From Candidatus Polarisedimenticolaceae bacterium (GTDB lineage: Bacteria > Acidobacteriota > Polarisedimenticolia > Polarisedimenticolales > DASRJG01), in contig DASUCV010000020.1 of assembly GCA_036275915.1 (NCBI GenBank), positions 124,001 through 188,000 on the forward strand: a stretch of DNA of 64,000 nt, given 5' to 3'. Every line of letters begins with the position of its first letter. The stretch's first letter is position 1. Both the position numbers and the translations under genes were made by a program. Under the pieces are notes generated by a model. The model made no database searches and had not been told where the DNA came from. It saw only the letters and a list, made by a program, of their open reading frames with translations. This document shows positions 6,037-21,197 of the stretch, one piece after another.

Positions 6037-7584
6037 CTACGGCGAGGTCTGCATCAAGACCGGCGTCGAGCTCCAGAAGCACGACGGGGACGATGCGCAG
6101 TCGATCGACCCGTCCGGCTTCATGCGGTACCAGAGCGAGATCGAAGCGCTTGGATTGACGAGGGCGCCGCCGTTCGGAACGACGATCGCCGCGAGCGTCC
6201 CAGCCGTCATCTGCTGGAGCTGCAACGTCGTGAGACCGAGGACGTAGTTGCTCGTGCCGACGTGCAGGGCCACTTGGTCGAGAACGATTCCGCCCGGGAG
6301 CGCGTCCGATTCCGACATGTCGATGCGCAAGTCGGAGCCGTGGCTCGTGGCGACGAGCCGCCCCGAGCATGGGACGCACGGGTCGGACTCGGGCTCGGGG
6401 TGCGTCGGCCCGCCCCACGTGTCGATGCTCGGGATCGCGTCGGGCGGCGTCGCGCGGCCGGCGGAAACCGTGACCGCAGCGGCGGCGGGATCGCCGCAGC
6501 CCGGCTGCGTGGGCCCGAGCAAGGCAGCGAAGATCGACGTGACGGCTGCGTTGCACCACGGCGTCGCTTTGCGTCCTTTCGCGAGCACGTAGCACCCGCT
6601 CGCCGGGCTCCATGCCGGCATCCACGTGCCGTCGCCGAGCTGGTCGAGAACGTCGGGATGGTCGAGCAGAGCGACGAGCCAACCCGAGAGGAGCGCGCTC
6701 GAGTACGACGACCCCGCGGGCGCCGGCCACGCGTCGAGGCAGAGTCCGTATCCGGGAATCGTGGCGGCCGCTGCCGGCGGCGTCTCCCAGGCCGGTCGTG
6801 TGGCGATGCCCGCGAGGAACGCATTGAGGTCGACCATGCCGGCGTCGACCACCTCGTCGAGCGCTCCGGGGAAGAGGCTGTCGCGATGGTTGCCGGCGGC
6901 GGCGACGAGCCACGCGCCGGACTGTGCGACGTGGTGGACGACCTGCGCGACCTGGCAGGCGGCGTTCTGCACCGGACACGACGAGGACGACGCGGGGTCC
7001 GTGGCGCGCACGCGGCGGCCGAAGCTCATGTTGACGGTCCGCGGTGCCGGCAGCGCTCCCCCGTCGACGTCCTGCGCGATCTCGCACAGCCTTGCGAGGA
7101 CGTGGAAGTCGCCGACCGGCCCGAGGACGTCGAGCGCCGGGTCGTCGAGCGGGGCGAGCGCCGGCGTGACGTCCGGCCCCGCGATCTGCCCGGCGAGCCA
7201 CGAGGTGCTCTCGCCGTGCGCGTCGTCGAAGTCGACGACGGCGATCCACCTCGACACGGGGCCGAGGCTCGTGAAGCCGGCGGGCGATTCCTGAGGAGCG
7301 ATGTCGCGGAGCCGCGTCATGTGCAACGGGAACGGCTGCGTGGCGGGCGGCGAGGCCGGATAGACCGGCGGCTCTTCTCCTCCCGACGCGCGCGGAGTGC
7401 ACCCGGGCGGCGGGGTCGACTGAAGGATCATGAACCGCCCGTACGTTCCGCAGGCGATGTCGACCGCGGCGGCGCCACCGGCGCAGCTTGCGTCGTAGAG
7501 GTGCCAGTCGATGGGCGTTGCGTGCGAGGCCGACACCGATGCGGCGAGGAGGGCGGCGAGCCAGGCGAATCGAGAGAGCTTCAT
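6037..7584 (-). CDS. Secreted subtilisin-like (S8 family) serine protease
   Basis: A 515-aa exported protein (signal MKLSRFAWLAALLAASVSA) with a divergent S8 triad. Asp118 lies in VVDFDD, His123 in HGESTSWLAGQI, an oxyanion-type Asn232 in AAAGNH, and Ser293 in GSSYSSALLSG (the GTS-x-A equivalent). NMSFG precedes the Asn region as in subtilases. The Asp and His are only about five residues apart, far closer than in typical S8 enzymes, so this is a compressed or atypical member. The remainder looks like a C-terminal beta domain. The ATG overlaps the stop of the upstream membrane-protein gene (ATGA). It may process secreted products of the operon or, more speculatively, trim the RiPP leader. Confidence 0.75.
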   Translation of the reverse strand: MKLSRFAWLAALLAASVSASHATPIDWHLYDASCAGGAAAVDIACGTYGRFMILQSTPPPGCTPRASGGEEPPVYPASPPATQPFPLHMTRLRDIAPQESPAGFTSLGPVSRWIAVVDFDDAHGESTSWLAGQIAGPDVTPALAPLDDPALDVLGPVGDFHVLARLCEIAQDVDGGALPAPRTVNMSFGRRVRATDPASSSSCPVQNAACQVAQVVHHVAQSGAWLVAAAGNHRDSLFPGALDEVVDAGMVDLNAFLAGIATRPAWETPPAAAATIPGYGLCLDAWPAPAGSSYSSALLSGWLVALLDHPDVLDQLGDGTWMPAWSPASGCYVLAKGRKATPWCNAAVTSIFAALLGPTQPGCGDPAAAAVTVSAGRATPPDAIPSIDTWGGPTHPEPESDPCVPCSGRLVATSHGSDLRIDMSESDALPGGIVLDQVALHVGTSNYVLGLTTLQLQQMTAGTLAAIVVPNGGALVNPSASISLWYRMKPDGSIDCASSPSCFWSSTPVLMQTSP

Positions 7585-8321
7585 GGTGCATTCTCCGTCC
7601 GGGCGGTGATCGTGAGCGAGACACGGTAGATGCGTCCCCCGGTCGCCTCGGTGAGGGCAAACTCGGAAGTCTCCGGCGGCGCAGCCACGCGGTCGGGCAA
7701 GCGGGAGCGACGAGAGACGACGATGAAGAAGGGACGCGTCCCTTCCGCCGGTCCGACGAGGTGGTCCGCCTCGGCGGTGAGGGAAGCGCTGCCGCGATCG
7801 GCCGCGATCGTGATCTCGTCCGGCTCCCTGAGGCGCGTGAGGCCGCCGTCGTCCCGGCGATACGCGCCGAACATCAGACCGGCCGCTGCTTCACCACGCG
7901 GCTCGACGACGACGCGCACGCGCTCCGAGGCGAAGGCGCGCGCTTCGCCGGGGACACCCCGTGTCGAGGCGAGCCCCTCGACGCGCACCGAGAAGTCGGG
8001 AAGCGGCGGCCTGCCCCGCCCGACGACGAGGAGCACGGTGATCCCGATCGTCGCCGCCGCGGCGAGCATCGCGGCGACGAGCTTCATCGGCCGCGAGCGA
8101 TGCTCCGGATGCGACTCGAGATGGACTCCGGCCAACGTCGCCAACCGCTCGCGTCCGTGCCGGCTCCCGGCGAGGCGCCATTCGAGGCGTGTCGTCTCGT
8201 CCGCCGGCAGCGCGCCCGCGCGGTAGGCGCTGAGGAGCTCGTCAGGGGGAGCCGGCCCGTCGTCGTGAGACTCCACGCGTGGCAGATCCCACAGCCGGTC
8301 GTCTTCGAATCTCGAAGTCAT
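7581..8321 (-). CDS. One-pass membrane protein, putative anti-sigma-like regulator
   Basis: A 246-aa protein. A cytoplasmic N-terminal helical domain (DELLSAYRAGALPADETTRLEWRL) has the look of anti-sigma N-termini but lacks the HCxxC zinc motif. A single membrane segment follows (LVAAMLAAAATIGITVLLVV, about 81-100) and then a beta-rich outer domain. It sits between the CHAT gene and the S8 gene with 4-bp overlaps at both ends, in an operon led by an ECF sigma factor. This is the usual place for a transmembrane sigma regulator. No direct sequence evidence shows sigma binding. Alternatively it is a membrane anchor for the CHAT and S8 proteins. Confidence 0.7.
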   Translation of the reverse strand: MTSRFEDDRLWDLPRVESHDDGPAPPDELLSAYRAGALPADETTRLEWRLAGSRHGRERLATLAGVHLESHPEHRSRPMKLVAAMLAAAATIGITVLLVVGRGRPPLPDFSVRVEGLASTRGVPGEARAFASERVRVVVEPRGEAAAGLMFGAYRRDDGGLTRLREPDEITIAADRGSASLTAEADHLVGPAEGTRPFFIVVSRRSRLPDRVAAPPETSEFALTEATGGRIYRVSLTITARTENAP

Positions 8322-10987
8322 CGCAGCCCCCCCGCAAGATGGGGAGTCCGCGCATCGGCCGTTTGCCCCCCTCGATCGGCGTCGGCGCCGCTCAAGAGAA
8401 CCCACGCGCCCCACCGCGAGGCCGGGCTGCGGCGGCGAACGGCTTCGAGACCGGAGCGATAGGCGTGGGGAACGTCGCCCCCGCCCGCGAGGGCCGCATA
8501 GAACGCCCGATTGAACGCGGCGGCCAGGGCATCGGCGAGCGGCGCCCGGGCTGCGACGACCCACGGCACGCCCGAGCGCGCGAGAAGGCCGGCGATGCCG
8601 AAGCGGCCGCTGTCCGCGCTGACGGGCGCGCGCCCGGTGGCGCAACCGCTCAAATTGGCGAAGACGAGGCCCGGCCCCCACGCGGCCAGCTCCTGCCCGG
8701 TCGTGACACCGTCGGCGAGAACGATCGTCGAGAGCTCGGGAAACGCAGGCTCGTAGTGCGCGTGCGCGTCGACGTGAAGGAGCGCTGCGCCTGAAAGGGC
8801 CCGGCGGAGCGCATCGCGTGTCGCCCCCTCGCCGCGAAGGATCGTCGCGGGACCGCCGCTCCACGCAGCCGTCGCACCGAGGTCGCCGCGAGGATCGGAG
8901 ACGACGACGGCTCCGCCGGCGGCACTCTCGCGTCGCACGGGTGTCGCGATCGCCGTGCGATGGACCGGTGCGGTGACCTCGCCGAGCCATCGCCGGGCTG
9001 CGTCGGCTGGAATCCTGAGCGCGGCGAGCGGAACGTCTTGAAGGATGCCGTGCATCGCGAACGCCGTGGCGGCGGCGAGATCCTCCGCCCTGGGTGCGAG
9101 CGCTCTTCCCAGGGGTTCGACGAGCTGGTCCCATCGGGCGTCGTCGACGTCGCCTCGCTCGAGGGCATCGCGCACGGCCGAAATGCGCGCGACGAGCTCG
9201 GCGCGCGAGAACGGCGTCCGCCGGTAGGTGACGATGCGACCGCCCTCCGTTCGCCGGAGGACGATCACCTCAACGTCGACGGGGAATGCGCGGTAGTCGG
9301 TGGAGGCCTGCTCGCGCTTCGACGGAGCGTCGTGCGAACGGATCGCCTCGCGCATGCGGTCGAGCGCCGACCAGCGAATCGCATCGCGCTCCTCGCGCCG
9401 CGACGACGACGCGGGGCGCTCGAGCTCGGCCAGGAGAGCGAGCCACGGCTCGAGCGACACCGGCGCAGGTCGAGGTGGTGTCTCTCGGTCCTCGTCCAGG
9501 GCTTCCAAGATCGCCCACGCCTCTTCGGGGCGCCCGCCCTCGACCTCGACACGCGCCGCGGCGTACGCGTCCTCGGCCCAAGGGCTCGGCCCCAGCGGAT
9601 CGTCGAGCCGCGTCGCATTCGACGCCGCGTGGAGCGCGAGCGCCTTCGCGTAGCTCGCGCTCGCCTGCTCGAGCTTTCTCAGCTTCCGCAGTGCAGCTCC
9701 GGTGGCGCTCGCGGCGAAGGCGCGGACACGCGGGCTCGCAGCGGCCGCGTCGATCCGTCCGCACGCCGCGAGGGCGCGGTGCGCATCGCCCTCGTCCATG
9801 TCCCGCCGAGCCTCAGCAAGGTCGGCCCACGCGGCGAGATCGTGCGCCCGCGCGGAAGCGTCGTTGCCGATCAGACCGCGCGCACGCGCCAGGGCGTCCA
9901 CGGGCGCGCGGCCGGCGCGCACCTCGAGGAAGGCAAGGTTGAGAAAGACGTTCGCCTGCTCGAGTTTGTCCTGCGACGCCGGGGCTTCGGATCCGATCGC
10001 CGCCACGCGGCGCGTCGCCGCGTCGATCTCCTCGGGGGATGAATCGGGATCCGAAGCGACGAGCCACGCCCACGTGCTCTCCACGGAACGGACGAGCGAC
10101 GGGTCGCACGGGGCGGTGCCGCACACCGAGACCGCGAATCGGAGACGCTCCTTCGCCTCGCCGAGAGCGCCGGCGCGGGAGAGGACCTCCGCCTGCTTTC
10201 CGGCGACGGCGATCCACTTGCGATCGCCGCTCAGCCGGAAGCTTCGTTCGGCCGTCCGGAGGAGGCGCCAGCAACCGGCGAGATCGGCTCGAGCGTCGAG
10301 CGCGAGCGACGCGCGCTCGTAGTCGAGCGGACCCGCCCAGCGAAGGCCGGCGGTGGATCGCACCCACGGCGGGTCGTCGCGCAGCAGGAGCGTGGCCTCG
10401 GCACGCGCCGAGTCGGACCCATCGCGGCGCAGCGCGTACGCCGCGATGAGCTTTGCGCGGAACGCCAGTCCCGTGTAGCCGTCAGCCTTCGCGTCGTCGG
10501 AAAGCGACTCGAGCGCGGATGCCCCTTTGGCCAACGCGGAAGGGATCCGCTTGTCGAGCTCCGCGATCGCTCCATCGTCGGTCTCGAGCCGGAATGGCAG
10601 GCAGGGCAAGCTCTGCGTCTCTCCGTCGAAACGGTCGCGGAGGACGGCGCACATCGTCCGCGTTCCATCGGCGAGGCTCGCGGGGATCGGCGCCTCGAAG
10701 CAGACCGTCGTGTCGAGGCGCGCGACCGGACGCACGAAGGTGCCGTCGAGCACGCGCGCCTCCCACTGGCTCGTATCGGTTTGAGGCGGTGCGTCGAGGC
10801 AGAACCCGATCGGCGCGGACCGCCCGATCACGCGCGGGACCGGAGCGGCCGCCCCGGCGACGTCGATGTCGCGGTGGCCTCGAAATACAGGAGCGGGATC
10901 CGCGATCAGGCCGGAGCGTCCTGCGACGCGACACGCAGCCGCCGCGAGAGCGACCGCGATCAGCGCAGGCCGAGACGACGCGCGCAT
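8318..10987 (-). CDS. TPR-CHAT (caspase-like) lipoprotein
   Basis: An 889-aa protein. It begins with a lipoprotein-type signal (ALIAVALAAAAC, Cys19), then about 100 residues of beta-type domain, a long TPR-like alpha-helical solenoid (about 140-560), and a C-terminal CHAT domain (about 600-880). The CHAT dyad is visible as VDAHAHY (His742/His744) and NLSGCATG (Cys782), with the preceding GILQDVPLAALRI block also typical. CHAT proteases are caspase/separase relatives. TPR-CHAT proteins include the protease of type III-E CRISPR, but no CRISPR genes are present here. The ATG at 10987 overlaps the ECF sigma gene by 28 bp, and the 3' end overlaps the membrane-protein gene by 4 bp. Lipidation would place it in the envelope. 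Substrate unknown. Confidence 0.85.
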   Translation of the reverse strand: MRASSRPALIAVALAAAACRVAGRSGLIADPAPVFRGHRDIDVAGAAAPVPRVIGRSAPIGFCLDAPPQTDTSQWEARVLDGTFVRPVARLDTTVCFEAPIPASLADGTRTMCAVLRDRFDGETQSLPCLPFRLETDDGAIAELDKRIPSALAKGASALESLSDDAKADGYTGLAFRAKLIAAYALRRDGSDSARAEATLLLRDDPPWVRSTAGLRWAGPLDYERASLALDARADLAGCWRLLRTAERSFRLSGDRKWIAVAGKQAEVLSRAGALGEAKERLRFAVSVCGTAPCDPSLVRSVESTWAWLVASDPDSSPEEIDAATRRVAAIGSEAPASQDKLEQANVFLNLAFLEVRAGRAPVDALARARGLIGNDASARAHDLAAWADLAEARRDMDEGDAHRALAACGRIDAAAASPRVRAFAASATGAALRKLRKLEQASASYAKALALHAASNATRLDDPLGPSPWAEDAYAAARVEVEGGRPEEAWAILEALDEDRETPPRPAPVSLEPWLALLAELERPASSSRREERDAIRWSALDRMREAIRSHDAPSKREQASTDYRAFPVDVEVIVLRRTEGGRIVTYRRTPFSRAELVARISAVRDALERGDVDDARWDQLVEPLGRALAPRAEDLAAATAFAMHGILQDVPLAALRIPADAARRWLGEVTAPVHRTAIATPVRRESAAGGAVVVSDPRGDLGATAAWSGGPATILRGEGATRDALRRALSGAALLHVDAHAHYEPAFPELSTIVLADGVTTGQELAAWGPGLVFANLSGCATGRAPVSADSGRFGIAGLLARSGVPWVVAARAPLADALAAAFNRAFYAALAGGGDVPHAYRSGLEAVRRRSPASRWGAWVLLSGADADRGGQTADARTPHLAGGLR

Positions 10988-11586
10988 CGGTCGATCGCTC
11001 CATCCAGGACCGACCGCAGCTTGTACGTGATCTTCCGCGACCAGCCGGTCACGACCGCGATCTCATCCGGAGTGAACCCGTCGACGAACCGGAGCTTGTA
11101 GTAGAGGTACGACCGGCTCCCGGCCCGCTTGAGACACGCCTTGAGCTTGCTCAAGAGGTCGCGGTCGAGCGTGAGGCGCTCCGCATCGACCGGGTCGACC
11201 GCTTCCTCCACCGGCATCGACGAAGCGGCAGGCTTGCGCCGCGCCGAGCGCAGGCGGTTGCTCGCGATACCGCAGGCGAGGTCCCACAGGTACGCGTCGA
11301 GCCGCGTCTCCGTGCGTTGAGCCGCCGGGACCTCGTCGAGGAATCGTCCGAAGGTGCGCGGCGCGCTCTGGAAGAAGAAGAGGAAGGTGTCCTGGAACAC
11401 TTCCTCGACGTCGACCCCGCGGAACCGCGCGTACCGCGCGCGCAGCCGGCGTGAGAGGCGCGGCGCGAACGTGTCGTGCAGCCAACGCCGCGCTCCGTCG
11501 TCGCCGTCGACGATGCGCGTGAGGCGCTCCGTCAGCTCCGCTCCCGCTCCGCGAGGCTCGAACTCCGGGAATGCCGTGGCCGACAT
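10960..11586 (-). CDS. ECF-family RNA polymerase sigma factor
   Basis: A 208-aa sigma-70-family factor. The region-2 block is DVEEVFQDTFLFFF and the following L-W-D-L-A-C-G-I-A-N-R-L block. A linker (residues about 105-130) precedes region 4, whose helix-turn-helix is DGFTPDEIAVVTGWSRKITYKLRS. It should direct RNA polymerase to a dedicated promoter set, possibly its own operon. It is the first gene of an overlapping series (CHAT, membrane protein, S8), which argues that those proteins are either its regulators or its regulon. The ATG at 11586 has only a weak AAGG ribosome site. The promoter it recognises could not be identified by eye. Confidence 0.88.
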   Translation of the reverse strand: MSATAFPEFEPRGAGAELTERLTRIVDGDDGARRWLHDTFAPRLSRRLRARYARFRGVDVEEVFQDTFLFFFQSAPRTFGRFLDEVPAAQRTETRLDAYLWDLACGIASNRLRSARRKPAASSMPVEEAVDPVDAERLTLDRDLLSKLKACLKRAGSRSYLYYKLRFVDGFTPDEIAVVTGWSRKITYKLRSVLDGAIDRCARRLGLR

Positions 11587-11640: not shown

Positions 11641-14600
11641 TCACGGCCCCGGCGTGCACTCCGCGACGAGCTGATCGACGCGCTTCCGGTAGATCTGCCG
11701 GTTGTCCGCCGCGTCGTGCACCTCGACGGTGATCCAGTCGCTCGACGAGACCCCCAGGATCGAGAGGAGAACCTCGCCGTTCTGGATCGGGTGAGAAGAG
11801 TCGGGCCATTGCGCCGAGTAGATCGACCGACTGTCGTTCAGGAGAACCGAAATCGACTTCAGCGCGTTCGAGTCGTCCCACCATCCGACTCGAAGTTGGG
11901 TCGCAGCGCAGTTGCTCGTCGAGATCGCCGCGTCCGCGGTGGGGTGGTACCAATCGAACTTGTAGCCGATGGGGTTCGGAATCGTGTTCCCGGTATCCCG
12001 CGGCATGTGGTTGTCGATCCACTTCCCGAGCTTGAAGAGCCACGAGGCATACGCGGCGTCGCCGGTCGTGCACGGGTGCCCCGCACTGTTGCCGAGATTG
12101 TCGTGGATTGAGGAGTAGTAGTAGCCGTACCGCGTCTTGTCATCGCAGCCGGTGCAGTTGACGTTCGCCGGCGCCGCGGTGTTGTCCCGATTGTCGGTGC
12201 GGCGCCCGCGTGCCGCCCAGAAGAGGGGGCTGCCGAGCGCGCCGAGCCCCGAGCTCGCGTACTTGCGAAGATTGAGGGTGGCGTACACGAGATCCGACGT
12301 CGGGATCGACGTGTCGGACCAGGAGAGGGCGTTCTGCGCCGTCGTATTCCCCGAGCTCGACGAGTTGTGACAACCGCCGCAATAGGTATTCAAGCCCTGC
12401 CAGATGTCGGCGCGCCACTCCGGGTAGTCGACCGCCGGTGCCCGTGTCGGTGGGTCCACCTGGATCTGGCAGTGCGCGTCGTACGAGATCGTCGTGGTCG
12501 AGCGCACGAGGTCGAGCGGCGGCTGCGTGCTCGCATAAGAGTTCTCGAACCGTACGGGCGAGGGGGCATCGGCGGCGTGCTGATGGCATCCACCGCAGTC
12601 CGTCCGCGTCTCCTGCGGCTTGAGGCTGTGCCAGCTCGCCTGATCGGTCAGCTTCATCCCGTAGGTCGAGTCGATCGCCTGGAGCTCGATCGGCACGTTC
12701 GACGGGATCAGCGCGAACGCCGATTGATCCGTTTGGTTTCGGACGTCGTAGATGCCGAGGAGGCGCGAGGCCTCGGTGGCACGGCCATACTGGCCGTTGC
12801 CGAAGTGCACACCGTCCGACGTGTACCCGAGCGCCGAATCGTTGAGATTCGTCTTGTCGCTGGTGATGTTGATCACGAGGCCGAGGATTTGCGACGCCGG
12901 CGGCGGAACGCAGAAGTTGTTCGGGGGGCTCACGTTGACCCAGGTCCATGGCGCCTGGTTCTGCGTGATCAGATCGCTTTCCTGGCCGACGCCGTAGTTG
13001 CCCCACGGGTTGAAGTACAAACGAGCCCCGGAGGCCGGTTGCCTGAGGTAGCACTCCCATGGACGCCGATCGGTATTCCCCATCGCCGAGGTCCCGATGC
13101 GGGCGAACGGCTCTCCCGGGAGGATGTCGGGAGTCGGCGTGATCAACGACTTCGTCGCCACCCGCTGGGTCGCGTCGCCGTTCGAGCGGGTGCTCCACGG
13201 CACGATCGGCACCGGCCAGACGAGGTTCGAATCGCCGTTCCGCTTCCGGATGACGATGGAGCTCCCGTCGTAGTGGTTCTCCGGGCTTGGCGTGACCCCC
13301 GGATTGAACCAATTGAGGTTGGGTCGAAAGTCGATACGCGCGCGGTAGCGGCCCTGGTTACATTCCGCGTCGTAGTTGTAGCTCTTGTAATTCGCGCCGG
13401 TCGGCGTGTACGAGAAGTAGAGCTCATCGACGCCTCCGCAACGCGGCGAGGTGAATTTCCCGTAGAACACGCCGGGCGATCGCAGAGGGGACGGCTGGTC
13501 GGTCGAGAGTGAAAGAGGCGATGGCGTGAGCAGCTGAGATCCGACCTGCAACGGAACGTACCAGTTGTTCTGCACGAGGTTGGCAGGGTCGTTGTAGGTG
13601 TTCTTTCCACGGATTGAAAGGTCTTGCGACCACAGCGCGCCGAACCCCTCGTTGCTCCCGTTGTAGTAGCGGGCGGCGACGAGGCGGTCGCCCAAGACGC
13701 CGTTGTCGTTCGTCACGCAGAACGTGGCGAGGTGGTAGACCTCGGGGTTCGAGCCGTAGCCGATGATCGGGAACCAATACCCCTCGGAGTCCATCCCCTG
13801 GATGTGCCACATGCGCATCGCGTCGGTCGATGCTTGATACGAGAAGGCGAGGCCGTTTCTGAGCGGCGTCGGAGATAACGCGGAGGTCGTCGTGTAGTAC
13901 TGGAACTGCCCGTCCTCGGGGCCGAGCGTGCCGTCCGGAAGGATCGGAGCGACGTGAATGTTGAAGTTGTTGTTGGAGTGACCCATCTGCTGGTTCGAGT
14001 TCGCGAGCCGGCGCTCGTTGCTCACGTAGGCCAAGCGGAGTCCGGCGCGCGTTCTGAACTCGGTCGGATGCATGAAGACGGTGCCCCAGTTCGTTTCGTT
14101 GATGCTCGTTTGCTGCGCCATCGTCGGATTCATCGCCGCTTTGTCGCGGTCGGCGGGGTCTTGCACCATGTATCCATGATCGAACACATAGTTTCGGGTC
14201 GTCAGACGCGTCACGACGAGCGTATCGGGATTCGTCAGCGGCTGGCTCAGGAGAGGGCCGATGTCGATCGCGTAGAGGTCGGCGCCGGTCCGCGAGAGCG
14301 TCATCTGATCTTGATGCGTGCTGTTCGCGTCGGTCGCGTCCTGAAAGTACGCGAAGTAGATACGCCGGCCGTCCTCCGAGAGGCTCGGCTCGACGACGGA
14401 GCCGACGGCCGCTGTGAAGTCGATGACCGAATGCTCGTGGATCGGCCGCGGGAAGAGCTTGACGACCTGACCCACGGATGGGAGATAGATCCACAGCTCG
14501 TTGCCCGGATCAGGGTCGTTCGCGGAGAGCACGTCGGTCCCGACGTGGTAGTGACCGACCGTGGCGTTGGGGAAGGGCGTCCCTGAGCAGGTCTGCGGAT

Positions 14601-14844
14601 TATTCGGGTCGTAGGCGTAACAAGACGACCCGATCAGGCATAAGGGATGACTCCACTCGACGACCGGCGACTTGACGAACGCGATCGGATACGAGGGGAG
14701 GTAATACGCGGGATCCCCCGGGTTCACGAACGCGGTGTCCCAGCCGGGCGTCGGATCCGGAACCTGTTGGAGCCCACCCGGCGCCGCCGAAACCGCACCA
14801 CCCACGAGGACGGCCAACGCCGTCGCGCAAAGTTTCTGCCCCAT
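11641..14844 (-). CDS. Large secreted di-heme cytochrome c, hydrazine-synthase-alpha-like propeller
   Basis: A 1067-aa exported protein (signal MGQKLCATALAVLVGGAVSA; ribosome site AGGAGGGAGGG). The first ~700 residues form a PD40-like propeller (SEDGRRIYFAYFQDA is a typical strand block). Two heme-c sites follow, CGGCH at 750-754 and CGGCH at 822-826, with a degenerate CTGCD near 898. The layout recalls the alpha subunit of anammox hydrazine synthase and its many uncharacterised relatives. I do not claim hydrazine synthesis, because no beta or gamma subunits are present. A periplasmic redox role is most likely. A carbohydrate-like C-terminal domain closes the protein. The next gene on the strand, the ECF sigma factor, is 54 bases downstream. 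Confidence 0.8.
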   Translation of the reverse strand: MGQKLCATALAVLVGGAVSAAPGGLQQVPDPTPGWDTAFVNPGDPAYYLPSYPIAFVKSPVVEWSHPLCLIGSSCYAYDPNNPQTCSGTPFPNATVGHYHVGTDVLSANDPDPGNELWIYLPSVGQVVKLFPRPIHEHSVIDFTAAVGSVVEPSLSEDGRRIYFAYFQDATDANSTHQDQMTLSRTGADLYAIDIGPLLSQPLTNPDTLVVTRLTTRNYVFDHGYMVQDPADRDKAAMNPTMAQQTSINETNWGTVFMHPTEFRTRAGLRLAYVSNERRLANSNQQMGHSNNNFNIHVAPILPDGTLGPEDGQFQYYTTTSALSPTPLRNGLAFSYQASTDAMRMWHIQGMDSEGYWFPIIGYGSNPEVYHLATFCVTNDNGVLGDRLVAARYYNGSNEGFGALWSQDLSIRGKNTYNDPANLVQNNWYVPLQVGSQLLTPSPLSLSTDQPSPLRSPGVFYGKFTSPRCGGVDELYFSYTPTGANYKSYNYDAECNQGRYRARIDFRPNLNWFNPGVTPSPENHYDGSSIVIRKRNGDSNLVWPVPIVPWSTRSNGDATQRVATKSLITPTPDILPGEPFARIGTSAMGNTDRRPWECYLRQPASGARLYFNPWGNYGVGQESDLITQNQAPWTWVNVSPPNNFCVPPPASQILGLVINITSDKTNLNDSALGYTSDGVHFGNGQYGRATEASRLLGIYDVRNQTDQSAFALIPSNVPIELQAIDSTYGMKLTDQASWHSLKPQETRTDCGGCHQHAADAPSPVRFENSYASTQPPLDLVRSTTTISYDAHCQIQVDPPTRAPAVDYPEWRADIWQGLNTYCGGCHNSSSSGNTTAQNALSWSDTSIPTSDLVYATLNLRKYASSGLGALGSPLFWAARGRRTDNRDNTAAPANVNCTGCDDKTRYGYYYSSIHDNLGNSAGHPCTTGDAAYASWLFKLGKWIDNHMPRDTGNTIPNPIGYKFDWYHPTADAAISTSNCAATQLRVGWWDDSNALKSISVLLNDSRSIYSAQWPDSSHPIQNGEVLLSILGVSSSDWITVEVHDAADNRQIYRKRVDQLVAECTPGP

Positions 14845-14924
14845 CGCACCCTCCCTCCTGAGACCTCTTCAGAAGAGAGGGAGTCCGCGTCGTGGCCGAT
14901 TGCCCTCTGCGGTACGCTACTTTC

Positions 14925-17900
14925 GTGGGGCGCGTCAAGATCCTCGCGATGCTCGTGGCGGCCACGCTGCCGTTCGCCGCCCACGCCGCCCGGGCTCCGA
15001 TCCGCCACTACACCGCCACCGACGGGTTCGCGGAATCGCACGTCAACCGTCTCAAAATCGATCCGAGCGGTGTCGTGTGGATCGCGGGCGCGTCGGGGTT
15101 GTGGAAGTTCGATGGCGAGCGCTTCGATCTTCTCGGTGCGGATCTGGGTCTCCCGCGCGCGGAGGTCCAGGACATCGCCCTCGCCGGCGACGGATTGCTC
15201 TGGGTCGCGACCGACGTGGGGCTGTTTCGCGGTGACCCTTCGCAGCGGAAACAGGAACCGGTGTTCGCGCGCTTCGAATTCCCATCGGAGGAGAACGGAT
15301 CCGCGCCGGCTCCGTTCCGCCTGCTCGCCGCCGGCGACGGCACGATCTGGGTCGGCACGCGGCACGGCTTGTGGCGGATCCCACCGACCGGCGGAGGCGC
15401 GTCGAGAATCGACGGCGTGCCGCAGCTCGGGCGCGTGACCAGCCTCGCGGAGGGACCGGGAGGCGCCGTCTGGGTCGGGACACATCGCTCCGGTCTCTAT
15501 CGCATCGCACGCGACGGCCGCGTCGATCATCACGATGATGCCGAGCCGGGCTACGGGTTCGTCAGCGACTTCATGTTCGACGACGACGGGAGCGTGTGGA
15601 CCGCCTTCCTCGGCGGCGTCGCGCACTTCACGGGAGATCCGTTCGCCTCGCCCGCTCCAGGGCCGGCCATTCTCGGAGAGTCGGACGGCATCAGCATCAG
15701 CCCGAGCAGCCTCCTGCGCGTCGATCGCGACCGGTTCCTGATCGGCACGCTCGCGGGGATCGACGACGTGCGGCGCGATGCGAGCGGGCGCTTCAAGGTC
15801 GAGGGCAAGCTCGATCGATCGTCGGGCTTGCCCGATGCCGCCGTGCAGACGGTCGCCTTCGACCGCGAGGGAAACCTGTGGTGCGGGATGTTCTACCGCG
15901 GGTTGGCCAAGCGCGTCGCGAGCGGTTTCACGCAGCACGACGAGGTCGACGCGCAACGCTCGATCATCATCGGTGTCGCCGGGGATCGAGAGGGCCGGGT
16001 CGCCGTGCTCACCCGAGGCGAGACGTCGCTCACGCTGTACACGAGCGGCGCCGCGGACTTGGTCGCGCGGGCGCTCACCCTTCCGTTCGCTTCGGGACTC
16101 GTGGGCTGGCGCACCGCGGGGCAGTTCGCCCAGGATCCGTCCGGAGATTGGTGGGTAGGCGGCTCCATGGGCCTGCTCCGCTTTCACGGTGCGACGCCGG
16201 TGCGCGCACCGGCCGGCGGAAGCGACCTCGAACGCGCCGAGGCTTCGGCGGTCTTCGTCGCCGCGAACGGCGACCTCTGGATCGGCTCCCCGAGGGGCGA
16301 ATCGGAAGCGAGCACGCTGTCGTGCCGGCATCCCGGCGGCACCATCACGACCTTTCCGTCCTCGGCCATCGGGACGCACGCCGTCGCCTACGCGTTCGCG
16401 GAGGACGCCGCGCACGACATCTGGATCGCCTTCGAGGACGGAAGGATCCTCCGCTACCGCGACGGAAATTTCGAGCGCCTCCCGGTCCCGGTCGCGGCCC
16501 TCGCGGAAGCGCCGTTCTTCGTCGATCGCGCGGGTGCGCTGTGGATCTTGGGTCAAGGCCTCGCGGTCAGCTCGGATCCGGCATCCGCGCATCCGGCGTT
16601 CGAGCGGCAGCCTCTGCCTGCTCGGTATGCCGATCTGGCGACGACGTGCGGCACGGAGGATCGCGACGGCCGCTTCTATTTCGGCACGACGCGCGGCGTG
16701 CTCCGTCTCGATCGCAAGACCGGCGCCTTCCGCCTCTTCACCGACGACGACGGCCTCCCGCGCGGCGAGATTCGATACGCCTTTCGCGACACCTCCGATC
16801 GGCTCTGGTTCGCGGATGCGATCGGCCTCGCGCAGCTCATCCCGGGTCCCGATCCACCGTCGTTCGAGGCGCCGATTCGCATCCGTTCGATCACCGTGGA
16901 AGGGACGCCGCTCCCCCTCGCTCCCCTCGGTGCGTCAAGCGTCGGTCCGCTCTCGCTTCGAGCCGGCGAGCGGACGCTGCGCATCGAGTACCTGGCCGTT
17001 CATCACGCACCGGGATCGTCTCCGCAGTTCCGCACCAAGCTCGAGGGCGCCGACTCGAGCTGGAGCGCGCCCACCGACGAACGCTCGGTCGTGTACTCGA
17101 ATCTCGCGCCCGGCCATTACCGCTTTCTCGTGACGTCCGCGACCTCGAACGGCGGATCGCCGGCGACCGTCGTCTTCCACGTGGCGGCGCCGTTCTACAA
17201 GCGTGGCTGGTTCGTGAGCCTCGTCGCCGTCCTCGGTGTCGCCGCCGCGTTCGGCGCGTACCGTGTTCGCGTCGCGCACCTGCTCACGCTCGAGCGGTTG
17301 CGCACGCGGATCGCCACCGACCTTCACGATGAGGTCGGCTCGAGCCTGTCGCAGATCGCCGTCTTGAGTCAGGTCGCGGAGCAAGCGCCGGCGCCGCGAG
17401 CGCTCGGCCGGATCACCGAGCTTGCGGGCAGCCTCGTCGATGCGATGAGCGACACGGTGTGGGCGATCAGCCCGGGCGAGGACCGTCTCAGCGATCTTGT
17501 CCATCGCATGCGGCGCTTCGGGGCCGACCTCTTCGCCGACGGCGCCGCGACGGTGCAGCTCGATCTGCCGGAGGCGCACGGCGACGAGCGCCTCGAACCG
17601 GACGTCCGGCGGGCGATCTACCTCGTCTTCAAGGAATCGCTCCACAACATCCACAAGCATGCGCGCGCGCGGCACGTCCGCGTCGCCCTGGAGCGGCGGG
17701 GCGGAGGCTTCCGGCTGACGATCGGCGACGACGGCCGCGGCTTCGACCATTCTGCGATCACACCCGGCCACGGTCTCGCGAGCATGCGCGCCCGCGCCGA
17801 GGCGCTCGACGGGCGCCTCAACGTGGAATCGGTCGTCGGCAGCGGCACGCGTGTCGTCCTCGACGTCCTCCGGCCGAAGCGATCGCTAGCAAGATGGATA

Positions 17901-17927
17901 GTGTGGCGTCGCAGGAACCGGATGTAA
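14925..17927 (+). CDS. Two-component-regulator-propeller sensor histidine kinase
   Basis: A ~1000-aa hybrid membrane sensor. It has a signal-like N-terminus, a periplasmic Reg_prop beta-propeller with repeated G-V-V/L-W-I/V-A/G blades (GVVWIAGASGLWKFDG, GLLWVATDVGLF), and a Y_Y_Y domain ending PGHYRFLV. One membrane helix follows (VSLVAVLGVAAAFGAYRV), then a HisKA_3 domain with the phospho-accepting His in LHDEVGSSLSQIA, and a HATPase with KESLHNIHKHA (N box), GDDGRGFD and GHGLASMRARAE. I use GTG 14925 because it gives a basic-hydrophobic signal; GTG 14892 is also open. It is 13 bases upstream of a NarL-type regulator, its obvious partner. The ligand is unknown, though polysaccharide-type cues are common for such propellers. 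The gene is divergent from the cytochrome. Confidence 0.92.
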   Translation: MGRVKILAMLVAATLPFAAHAARAPIRHYTATDGFAESHVNRLKIDPSGVVWIAGASGLWKFDGERFDLLGADLGLPRAEVQDIALAGDGLLWVATDVGLFRGDPSQRKQEPVFARFEFPSEENGSAPAPFRLLAAGDGTIWVGTRHGLWRIPPTGGGASRIDGVPQLGRVTSLAEGPGGAVWVGTHRSGLYRIARDGRVDHHDDAEPGYGFVSDFMFDDDGSVWTAFLGGVAHFTGDPFASPAPGPAILGESDGISISPSSLLRVDRDRFLIGTLAGIDDVRRDASGRFKVEGKLDRSSGLPDAAVQTVAFDREGNLWCGMFYRGLAKRVASGFTQHDEVDAQRSIIIGVAGDREGRVAVLTRGETSLTLYTSGAADLVARALTLPFASGLVGWRTAGQFAQDPSGDWWVGGSMGLLRFHGATPVRAPAGGSDLERAEASAVFVAANGDLWIGSPRGESEASTLSCRHPGGTITTFPSSAIGTHAVAYAFAEDAAHDIWIAFEDGRILRYRDGNFERLPVPVAALAEAPFFVDRAGALWILGQGLAVSSDPASAHPAFERQPLPARYADLATTCGTEDRDGRFYFGTTRGVLRLDRKTGAFRLFTDDDGLPRGEIRYAFRDTSDRLWFADAIGLAQLIPGPDPPSFEAPIRIRSITVEGTPLPLAPLGASSVGPLSLRAGERTLRIEYLAVHHAPGSSPQFRTKLEGADSSWSAPTDERSVVYSNLAPGHYRFLVTSATSNGGSPATVVFHVAAPFYKRGWFVSLVAVLGVAAAFGAYRVRVAHLLTLERLRTRIATDLHDEVGSSLSQIAVLSQVAEQAPAPRALGRITELAGSLVDAMSDTVWAISPGEDRLSDLVHRMRRFGADLFADGAATVQLDLPEAHGDERLEPDVRRAIYLVFKESLHNIHKHARARHVRVALERRGGGFRLTIGDDGRGFDHSAITPGHGLASMRARAEALDGRLNVESVVGSGTRVVLDVLRPKRSLARWIVWRRRNRM

Positions 17928-17940
17928 GGATTCGGAGACC

Positions 17941-18600
17941 ATGACGATGGACATCGAGACCTCCGTCATCCGTGTCGGGATCGTCGAGGACCAAGACGAT
18001 ATCCGCGAGGGCCTTGCGACCTTGATCGCGGCCGCGCCCGGCTTCGCCTGCGCCGGCGCGTGGCCGGTCATGGAGTCCGCGCTGCCCGAGCTCGAGGCGA
18101 AGGAGCCCGACGTCGTGCTCGTCGACCTGGGCCTTCCGGGCATGGGCGGGATCGAGGGAATCCGCCGTCTCAAGGTGTCGCGGCCGACGATCCCGAGCGT
18201 CGTCCTGACCGTCTATCAGGATGACGACCGGATCTTCCAGGCCCTGTGCGCCGGCGCGTGCGGCTATCTCCTGAAGAAGACCCCGGCACCGCAGCTCCTC
18301 GCCGGCGCGGCAGAGGCGGTGCGCGGCGGCGCCCCCATGTCTCCCGAAATCGCGCGTCGTGTGGTCGGGTTGTTCTCGCGGTTCGAGCCCGCCCGCCACG
18401 CCGATTACCGCCTCACACCGCACGAACTGCGCGTGCTGAAGCTCCTCGTCGAGGGGCACTCGTACAAGACGGCCGCGGCGGCGCTCGACGTCTCGGCGGC
18501 GACGATCGCCTTCCACCTGCGTCGGGTCTACGAGAAGCTCCAGGTCCACTCGAAGACCGAGGCGGTGTCGAAGGCGCTTCGCGACGGATTGGTGCGCTGA
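17941..18600 (+). CDS. NarL/FixJ-family response regulator
   Basis: A 219-aa regulator. The receiver domain has acidic Glu16/Asp17, phospho-acceptor Asp62 (VVLVDLGLPG), Thr90 (VVLTVY) and a conserved Lys near 112 (YLLKKTPAP). A LuxR-type helix-turn-helix (about 155-215) contains LTPHELRVLKLLVEGHSYKT and AATIAFHLRRVYEKL. A ribosome site (GGAG) precedes the ATG. It is encoded 13 bases after the propeller histidine kinase and is expected to be phosphorylated by it. The adjacent plus-strand gene for a large secreted repeat protein begins 68 bases downstream and is a plausible target. Confidence 0.95.
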   Translation: MTMDIETSVIRVGIVEDQDDIREGLATLIAAAPGFACAGAWPVMESALPELEAKEPDVVLVDLGLPGMGGIEGIRRLKVSRPTIPSVVLTVYQDDDRIFQALCAGACGYLLKKTPAPQLLAGAAEAVRGGAPMSPEIARRVVGLFSRFEPARHADYRLTPHELRVLKLLVEGHSYKTAAAALDVSAATIAFHLRRVYEKLQVHSKTEAVSKALRDGLVR

Positions 18601-18668: not shown

Positions 18669-21197
18669 ATGAGCACACGCTTCGTCAGCCTCATCGCCGC
18701 AGTTCTCTGCGCCACGGGTCTCGCGATGGCCACGCCGGAGATCGACACGTTCGTCCTCACGGTCGGTGGCCAGTCGCAGCCGACATTTCCGGATCCGCCG
18801 CCGTTCTCGTGCGGCACCTATGGAACGCCGCCGCCGGTCTTCCCATTCTTCGGTGGGTTGGGCGTGTCGATGCCCACGGAGGGTTACGCCGCCTGCGACA
18901 TCGCCGGCGGGTATCGGACGCGGACCGGCCCCGCCGGGCCGTTGGCCGATGCCACCTCGCTCGACGTCGACTACGACAACTTCGACAACGATCACTCGAC
19001 CGGATCGGCCGACGCCAAGGCGGACTTCGGCGTGCTGGGAGCGCGAGCGTACGCTCGGCTCCTCGCAACCCCCGGCTATGCCGCACCCATCGTCCAGGGT
19101 GCCGAGGCGTACGGAAAGTTCACCGATACGCTGACGATCACGAGCCCGAACGTTGCGAGCGGGGCCTCGGGCTACGTTCGCTTCCACTTCTGGATCGACG
19201 GCCACCTGAACTTCACCGGCAACGACGACGTTCGCATGACCGTGCTCTACCAGGCGAGCCCGGGACCGATCTATCCGCTGATGATCACCGGCGGCGCCAA
19301 CAACAACCCGCAGCCGTACATCAGCTACCCGGCCGGCTTCGGCGGCGCGAGCGGCCCCGGCACCTTCGGCGGCTTCACGCTCGCCGCCGGCTCGTCGAGC
19401 GGCGCCGGCGAGTTCGTGACGTTCCTGCTGCCGATCAACTTCGGCACATCATTCGACTTCACCGCGGGGCTCATGGTCTACGTCCTCCCCGGTGCGACGC
19501 TCGATGGGTTCGTCGATTTTCTCTCGACGGCGCGTCTCACCGGGATCGAGGTCATGGATGCCGGCATGACGCCGGTCCCAGCCTTCAGCGTGGCGGCGGG
19601 ATCAGGCACCAACTACGACGCAAACGGTGTGCACTATCCGGTGGATCCGTGTGCACCGATCGTCTCGAGCGGCGCGCCGGTGCCGGCCGGCACCGGCATC
19701 GTGACGTCGTTCGCAGAAGGACCCGTGAGCCGCGGCGGGCGCGACGCGTTCATCGCTTCGGGAACTTCAGGCCAAGAGGGCGTCTACGTGCGCGCGACTC
19801 CGCCGAACCCGATCAAGGTGGCCGATCTCGCGAGCGCGATCCCCGAAGGTACCGGGACGTTCACGGGATTCGGCAACCTGTCCATGGCGGCGTCGCTCCT
19901 GGGATTCATCGGCAGCGGTGCCGGGCAGGAAGGCGTCTACGTCGCCGACCTCAGCGATCTGCAGGTTCCGCCCAACCCCATCGAGGTGGCGGACCTTGCC
20001 TACGGCATCCCCGGAGGATCCGGCACCTTCACAGGCTTCGGCGATCTCTCGCTCGCTGGAATTCCGCCGACACCGATCCGGGCGGCGTTTGTCGGCAGCG
20101 GCGTGGGGCAGCAGGGCGTCTACCTCGCCGACCTCAGCAATCTACAGATTCCACCCGACCCCATTCGGCTCGTCGATCTCACGACCGCAATTCCGGGAGG
20201 GACCGGCGACTTCACGGCGTTCCGCGAGGTCTCCATGACGATATCCCCATCCGCGAGCCACGTGGGCTTCGTCGGAAGCGGAACGTCGCAGGAAGGTTTG
20301 TACCTCGCCGATGTCACGGACCTGATGATACCGCCAAGCCCGGTCCGGATCGCAGATGGAACGACACCGGTTCCGGGCGGAAGCGGCGCCTTCACCGGGT
20401 TCGGCCATCTGTCGCTCGCGTCACCGCGCGTCGCCTCACCGGCGGCGTGGCCGACACGCATCGCTTTCGTCGGAGCCGCCGCAGGCCAACAGGGCGTCTA
20501 TCTCTCGGAGGTGAGCAACTCCCTCGTTCCTCCCTCGCCAATCCGGCTCGTCGACCTCAATACGCCGATCCCGGGTGGCACCGGGACTTACACCGGCTTC
20601 GACGCGGTGAGTGCCGGTGGAAACGTCACCGCGTTTCGAGGGATGGGAAGCAACGGTCAAGCCGGGATCTATCTCGCGAGCCCGCCGACCAAGGTCATCG
20701 CGATCGGCGACACGCTCGAGGGAAAGACGGTCACGGGCGTCACCCTCGGGCGCGAAGGGCTCGACGGCGATCAGCTCGACTTCGGCGCGTCGTTCTCGGA
20801 CGGATCGCAGGCGATGCTCGTGTACACGGTGCCGTCCTTGCTCGATTCAACAGGAGCCGGCACGGTCGGCGACTCGTTGCGCGTCGACAGGTCCGTCGCG
20901 ACCCCCGGCAACGTGAAACTGAGCTGGAGCGCGAGCTGCTCGGTGAGCGCGACCGACTATGCGATCTACGAAGGCACGCTCGGTAACTGGTACAGCCACA
21001 CGATGCGGACATGCACTGACACCGGTGCCGATCTGACGGAAGACCTCGCGCCCGCGGCGGGCAACCGCTACTACCTGATCGTCGCGCTCGGGTCCGACGG
21101 CGAAGGCTCCTACGGCACCGACTCGACCGGCGCCGAGCGGCCGATCGGCTCGGGCTCGCGCTGCGAGGCCGTTCAGTCGATCGGGCCGTGTCCGTGA
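18669..21197 (+). CDS. Large secreted protein with six ~65-residue tandem repeats
   Basis: An 842-aa exported protein (signal MSTRFVSLIAAVLCATGLAMA; GGAG ribosome site). Residues 25-350 form a choice-of-anchor-like beta domain. Residues about 360-715 carry six repeats with the consensus F-x-G-S-G-x-x-Q-x-G-V-Y-L-A-D-L, then P-P-x-P-I-x-x-x-D-L, then I-P-G-G-T-G-x-F-T-G-F, predicted to be propeller blades. The C-terminal ~110 residues form a fibronectin-like module (YYLIVALGSDGEGSYGTDS) shared in style with other exported proteins of this lineage. Its last 11 codons and stop recur as an isolated 43-bp copy at 26305. No enzymatic motif is visible. It may be an extracellular binding or structural protein, perhaps controlled by the preceding two-component pair. 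Confidence 0.8.
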   Translation: MSTRFVSLIAAVLCATGLAMATPEIDTFVLTVGGQSQPTFPDPPPFSCGTYGTPPPVFPFFGGLGVSMPTEGYAACDIAGGYRTRTGPAGPLADATSLDVDYDNFDNDHSTGSADAKADFGVLGARAYARLLATPGYAAPIVQGAEAYGKFTDTLTITSPNVASGASGYVRFHFWIDGHLNFTGNDDVRMTVLYQASPGPIYPLMITGGANNNPQPYISYPAGFGGASGPGTFGGFTLAAGSSSGAGEFVTFLLPINFGTSFDFTAGLMVYVLPGATLDGFVDFLSTARLTGIEVMDAGMTPVPAFSVAAGSGTNYDANGVHYPVDPCAPIVSSGAPVPAGTGIVTSFAEGPVSRGGRDAFIASGTSGQEGVYVRATPPNPIKVADLASAIPEGTGTFTGFGNLSMAASLLGFIGSGAGQEGVYVADLSDLQVPPNPIEVADLAYGIPGGSGTFTGFGDLSLAGIPPTPIRAAFVGSGVGQQGVYLADLSNLQIPPDPIRLVDLTTAIPGGTGDFTAFREVSMTISPSASHVGFVGSGTSQEGLYLADVTDLMIPPSPVRIADGTTPVPGGSGAFTGFGHLSLASPRVASPAAWPTRIAFVGAAAGQQGVYLSEVSNSLVPPSPIRLVDLNTPIPGGTGTYTGFDAVSAGGNVTAFRGMGSNGQAGIYLASPPTKVIAIGDTLEGKTVTGVTLGREGLDGDQLDFGASFSDGSQAMLVYTVPSLLDSTGAGTVGDSLRVDRSVATPGNVKLSWSASCSVSATDYAIYEGTLGNWYSHTMRTCTDTGADLTEDLAPAAGNRYYLIVALGSDGEGSYGTDSTGAERPIGSGSRCEAVQSIGPCP

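Follow-up and report, generated by a model that had tools for sequence, protein, structure and literature searches.

Four genes lie on the minus strand of the window (the whole stretch of DNA that was analysed, 64,000 nucleotides). They code, in this order, for a sigma factor, a CHAT-domain protein, a membrane protein (MP) and an S8-like protein (Table 1). Consecutive genes overlap by 28, 4 and 4 bp, the overlap being ATGA in both of the shorter cases. This confirms the four-gene overlapping operon proposed in the initial annotation of the sequence. The start of the MP gene is an ATG located within a longer, mechanically defined open reading frame. Upstream of the sigma gene lies a further gene, whose product is a large secreted protein and whose end is 54 bp from the sigma start.

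Table 1. Genes of the module and the probable associated gene in the window
Product	Positions	Strand	Length	Assignment based on
ECF-like sigma factor	10960-11586	minus	208 aa	NCBIfam sigma70-ECF, TIGR02989
CHAT-domain lipoprotein with helical (weak TPR) solenoid	8318-10987	minus	889 aa	PF12770, Cys19 lipobox, His742/Cys782 dyad
Single-pass anti-sigma-like membrane protein (MP)	7581-8321	minus	246 aa	NF052375 in relatives, one transmembrane segment
Secreted divergent subtilase, S8-like, with C-terminal PCVPC domain	6037-7584	minus	515 aa	hhalign, PDB profile matches
Large secreted protein, probable associated gene	11641-14844	minus	1067 aa	PF18582, Mor1 relative

Using the S8 protein as the search marker, we identified 29 loci of this module in 17 species of Acidobacteriota, the phylum to which the search was directed. 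The set consists of 21 complete loci and eight that are cut by contig ends. The order sigma-CHAT-MP-S8 is identical in all 21 complete loci, and the eight truncated ones agree in those neighbours that are present. Conservation of the order outside this strain, which had been set beforehand as a test of the proposal, is thus borne out, and such consistency rules out a chance arrangement. The identity between module copies is only about 30-40% (median 28-42%); judged from the sequences, the gene order is thus retained over great divergence. Moreover, divergence is correlated across 20 loci for each of the six possible protein pairs (r 0.52-0.74; p 0.0005 by permutation). Correlated divergence of this kind shows co-inheritance and fits a module inherited as a unit, though it is not by itself proof of binding. 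Within the phylum at large it is infrequent, with strong matches in 5 of 396 sampled genomes. When named genomes were scanned with a single strict peptide pattern, the only match was Acidobacteria bacterium Mor1 (CP011806), which belongs to the same taxonomic order as the window genome and has four copies of the module.

The sigma factor of the window matches the NCBIfam sigma70-ECF model with an E-value of 2.1e-5, which is under the model cutoff, and TIGR02989 with an E-value of 6.8e-6; its Pfam matches are also under the cutoffs. A profile built from its relatives detects an ECF sigma factor in the PDB (6dxo, E-value 5e-4). Among 16 homologues, Sigma70_r4_2 is matched by four and region 2 by two. 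The assignment to ECF factors, which have sigma regions 2 and 4 only, is thus supported mainly through its relatives, some of which show region matches.

MP consists of an N-terminal helical domain, a transmembrane segment at about residues 82-100 and a C-terminal beta-sandwich. In the structure model, which is of moderate confidence, the helices span residues 27-63 and the beta domain residues 110-239, the latter being Ig-like according to Foldseek. The NCBIfam anti-sigma family NF052375 is matched by 14 of the 21 MP homologues (best E-value 6.5e-9) and PRK13920, an anti-sigmaE family, by nine; the window protein itself matches NF052375 with an E-value of 0.025, under the curated cutoff. The single transmembrane segment is found in the same place in all 21 homologues. 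The one relevant sequence match of MP in the PDB is a weak one: positions of about 31-82 in its profile align with 3hug_B (E-value 0.05; 0.28 and 0.07 with larger alignments), which is RslA, the membrane-bound partner of SigL in the complex from M. tuberculosis. It is thus through its homologues that MP shows an N-terminal anti-sigma domain combined with one transmembrane segment. An anti-sigma-like gene is also present in each locus whose contig extends far enough. The earlier placement of MP in the anti-sigma position is supported.

The CHAT domain is recognized with confidence (PF12770, E-value 2.4e-17, 63.8 bits against a cutoff of 24). Residues His738, Asp740, His742 and Cys782, which form the H-x-D-x-H motif and the catalytic cysteine, are invariant in all 24 homologues. 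The protein thus belongs to the CHAT family by both its domain score and its His/Cys dyad. The lipobox cysteine (Cys19) is present in 19 of the 21 copies with a complete N-terminus; the remaining two have a hydrophobic anchor instead. Of the TPR-CHAT lipoprotein described initially, the CHAT domain and the conserved lipobox are therefore secure, whereas the TPR match is weak in the window copy and becomes clearer in one relative.

The fourth protein is a more difficult case. Its Pfam match to Peptidase S8 is weak (E-value 0.057, under the cutoff). Nevertheless, its profile aligns with that of canonical subtilases in hhalign (probability 97.4%, E-value 1.4e-11), and nearly all of its profile matches in the PDB are subtilases. 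Candidate catalytic residues follow the subtilase order, D118-x4-H123...N232...S293, with an unusually short distance of five residues between Asp and His. The triad and the Asn are intact in 26 of the 29 homologues, consistent with a divergent member of Peptidase S8. The structure model is of low confidence (pLDDT 51.8), at which the Foldseek matches are not significant. Both residues singled out in the initial annotation for mutation, Cys782 of CHAT and Ser293 of S8, coincide with conserved catalytic positions.

The three exceptions (L164, L165 and L166) are monophyletic. Their S8 proteins have other residues in place of His, Gly, Asn, Glu267 and Ser. Since these residues were lost together in one clade, they probably form the active site in the other copies. 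A Trp-Glu pair at S8 residues 266-267 is likewise kept in 26 of the 29 homologues and absent from the three without the triad; it may belong to the active site. The CHAT dyad is intact in both L165 and L166, the two of these loci whose CHAT gene lies on the contig. The enzymatic activity of S8 is thus probably dispensable to the module, and CHAT, whose dyad is retained without exception in the 24 copies seen, looks like the indispensable protease. Two protease folds had been noted at this locus, and the sequence matches agree with both. The two proteins are not equal, as S8 has become a pseudo-enzyme in one clade and CHAT in none of those seen. As a separate observation, in locus L113 (6466-8049) an S8 domain and DUF4062 share one open frame, with genes for a CHAT protein and a sigma-like protein elsewhere in the locus.

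The relationship between S8 and MP is illustrated by locus L151, where the two are fused into one open frame of 765 residues and the S8 signal peptide is absent. The fusion shows, at the level of the predicted proteins, that MP and S8 can work as one unit, and fits a location of S8 on that portion of MP which lies outside, towards its C-terminus. It comes from a single assembly, so that misassembly is possible, although the absent signal peptide argues against it. This arrangement, together with genes that overlap or abut in other species, makes S8 physically the closest protein to MP. It might therefore be argued that S8 is the site-1 protease acting on MP, with CHAT serving either as an upstream activator or downstream on other targets. 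We regard this as unlikely, since the module persists in L164, L165 and L166 despite the loss of the S8 triad as a set, with CHAT intact in the latter two, and since the Asp-His spacing is unusually short.

The gene upstream of the sigma gene codes for a protein with a hydrazine-synthase-alpha-like middle domain (PF18582, E-value 4.8e-9) and two CxxCH motifs. Over 1066 residues it is 48.5% identical to a Mor1 protein (L054, 11719-14817), which is encoded directly downstream of a Mor1 copy of the module. As these related genes both flank the module, large secreted proteins beside it are suggested as sigma targets, the linkage of this particular pair being seen in two species only. When the regions preceding the sigma and cargo genes were searched for a common promoter motif, nothing rose above shuffles, leaving autoregulation unsupported. 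Immediately ahead of the sigma start there is a GAAACTTT...GTCTC site, which is no more than suggestive. Further along the window, divergent from the cargo gene and separated from it by 47 bp, plus-strand genes code for a Reg_prop/Y_Y_Y histidine kinase (14892-17927) and a LuxR-type response regulator (17941-18600). The product of another plus-strand gene (18669-21197) is secreted and has no Pfam family; beside one Mor1 module copy, at L053 12095-13009, lies a relative with 43% identity (134 aa).

The two proteases could instead be outputs of the system. The sigma/anti-sigma pair would then sense something else and induce two secreted proteases for the maturation or degradation of a surface protein, for example the large neighbour. 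A large secreted protein does stand beside several copies of the module, including the related pair in two species. However, L108 and L111, both from other species, have no such directly adjoining neighbour in the stretch read, and the fusion in L151 ties S8 to the anti-sigma protein itself. We therefore consider the proteases quite unlikely to be mere outputs.

Taken together, the data describe a real, conserved and multi-copy module for which a proteolytic mechanism is plausible. Our preferred reading, which we hold with slightly better than even confidence, is that the four genes form one envelope signalling unit in which a transmembrane anti-sigma factor undergoes regulated proteolysis, the first protease probably being CHAT and S8 acting as its partner or co-receptor. 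In this scheme, whose sigma/anti-sigma binding, first-cutting protease, signal and regulon we infer, the cytoplasmic N-terminal domain of MP would hold the ECF sigma factor at rest. The periplasmic beta domain of MP would be the substrate and receptor side, working with the S8-like protein. A signal would be sensed by the helical solenoid of membrane-tethered CHAT, by the S8 fold, or by both. CHAT would then cut the periplasmic part of MP, while S8 would cut it as well, or else position or license the substrate. General site-2 (M50) proteases, which are present in the genome, and cytoplasmic proteases would subsequently free the sigma factor, which would activate its own operon as well as, in certain copies, the gene for the adjacent large secreted protein. 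Sorting as a lipoprotein could, however, separate CHAT from MP by carrying it to the cell surface or the outer membrane.

Proteolytic envelope signalling with a dedicated sigma factor had been suggested initially. It is supported by the anti-sigma matches, the single transmembrane segment in 21 of 21 homologues, the MP-S8 fusion, the tethering of CHAT and the co-diversification of the module; for the accompanying suggestion of a self-targeting cascade we found no support. More tentatively, and with somewhat less than an even chance in our estimation, the module may represent an undescribed class of sensor, in which a membrane-tethered, extracytoplasmic, caspase-fold CHAT protein makes the site-1 cut in a transmembrane anti-sigma factor. 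The subtilase, which one species has fused to the anti-sigma factor and one clade has as a pseudoprotease, would have turned co-receptor.

If envelope signalling of this kind is confirmed, caspase-fold control of sigma factors would reach beyond one CRISPR-linked system to general envelope signalling, and there would be a hint at a possible origin of the logic of that system, type III-E CASP. CHAT proteases are very numerous in Acidobacteriota, with 21 matches in the Mor1 genome alone (most of them outside the module), and a role would thereby be provided for some of them. Two questions become testable with purified parts: whether CHAT cuts the anti-sigma factor, and whether the subtilase acts as an enzyme or as a receptor.

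In type III-E CASP the CHAT protease Csx29 (TPR-CHAT) cuts the sigma inhibitor Csx30, and CASP-sigma is encoded alongside (PMC10028731). The module resembles CASP in that the CHAT gene has as neighbours those of an ECF-like sigma factor and of its presumed inhibitor; in CASP this inhibitor is what the protease cuts (PMC10028731). This likeness, together with a weak match between CHAT and BovA (E-value 0.0095) among the PADLOC results, all of them marginal, might suggest a defence or programmed-death device in which invasion triggers proteolysis. Several features make such a role very improbable. CHAT and S8 carry signals for lipoprotein export and for secretion, respectively, none of the genes recognized in the loci belongs to defence, a search of plasmids for S8 and MP relatives found none, and the module co-diverges as a unit. 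CASP itself is cytoplasmic and RNA-guided by Cas7-11, whereas the CHAT protein of the module is predicted to be membrane-tethered on the outside, the presumed inhibitor is transmembrane and an S8 partner is added. CASP is defined by Cas7-11 and a CRISPR array accompanying Csx29, Csx30 and CASP-sigma, and no Cas genes were recognized in the gene lists around the module.

RseA and RsiW are transmembrane anti-sigma factors under regulated proteolysis of the RseA/DegS/RseP type (PMC10028731). The module shares with this type a single-pass anti-sigma factor, a periplasmic protease expected for the first cut and available M50 proteases. It differs in its candidate first protease: where this type has a PDZ-trypsin-type protease, the module would use an operon-encoded CHAT lipoprotein (caspase fold) partnered by a subtilase. 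Another comparison is provided by loci of several other Thermoanaerobaculia with the related but distinct layout ECF-small protein X-CHAT-canonical S8 (L069, L071 and L072), which have like protein classes in a similar order. There, however, no lipobox was seen by eye at the CHAT N-termini, the canonical S8 has a prodomain, and X has no recognized family. In two related loci (L068 and L070) the CHAT-S8 pair alone is seen.

A further close precedent is ECF54, whose neighbourhoods, as summarized in PMC8999054 (citing Casas-Pastor 2021), include CHAT, subtilase and carboxypeptidase genes, and for which proteolytic control has been proposed. ECF54, with its model member in Geodermatophilus, is proposed there to act without an anti-sigma factor. 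Common to the two are an ECF sigma factor and, close to its gene, those of a CHAT protein and a subtilase. According to that description, however, the neighbourhood of ECF54 has no anti-sigma factor, while the module has a fixed transmembrane anti-sigma-like gene, and no carboxypeptidase gene was noticed as a part of it. The view that this is not a described system thus holds in the sense that the module lacks the defining features of both CASP and ECF54 as given in these sources; it has to be qualified, since the CHAT/subtilase neighbourhoods of ECF54 (PMC8999054) and the logic of CASP (PMC10028731) were already known.
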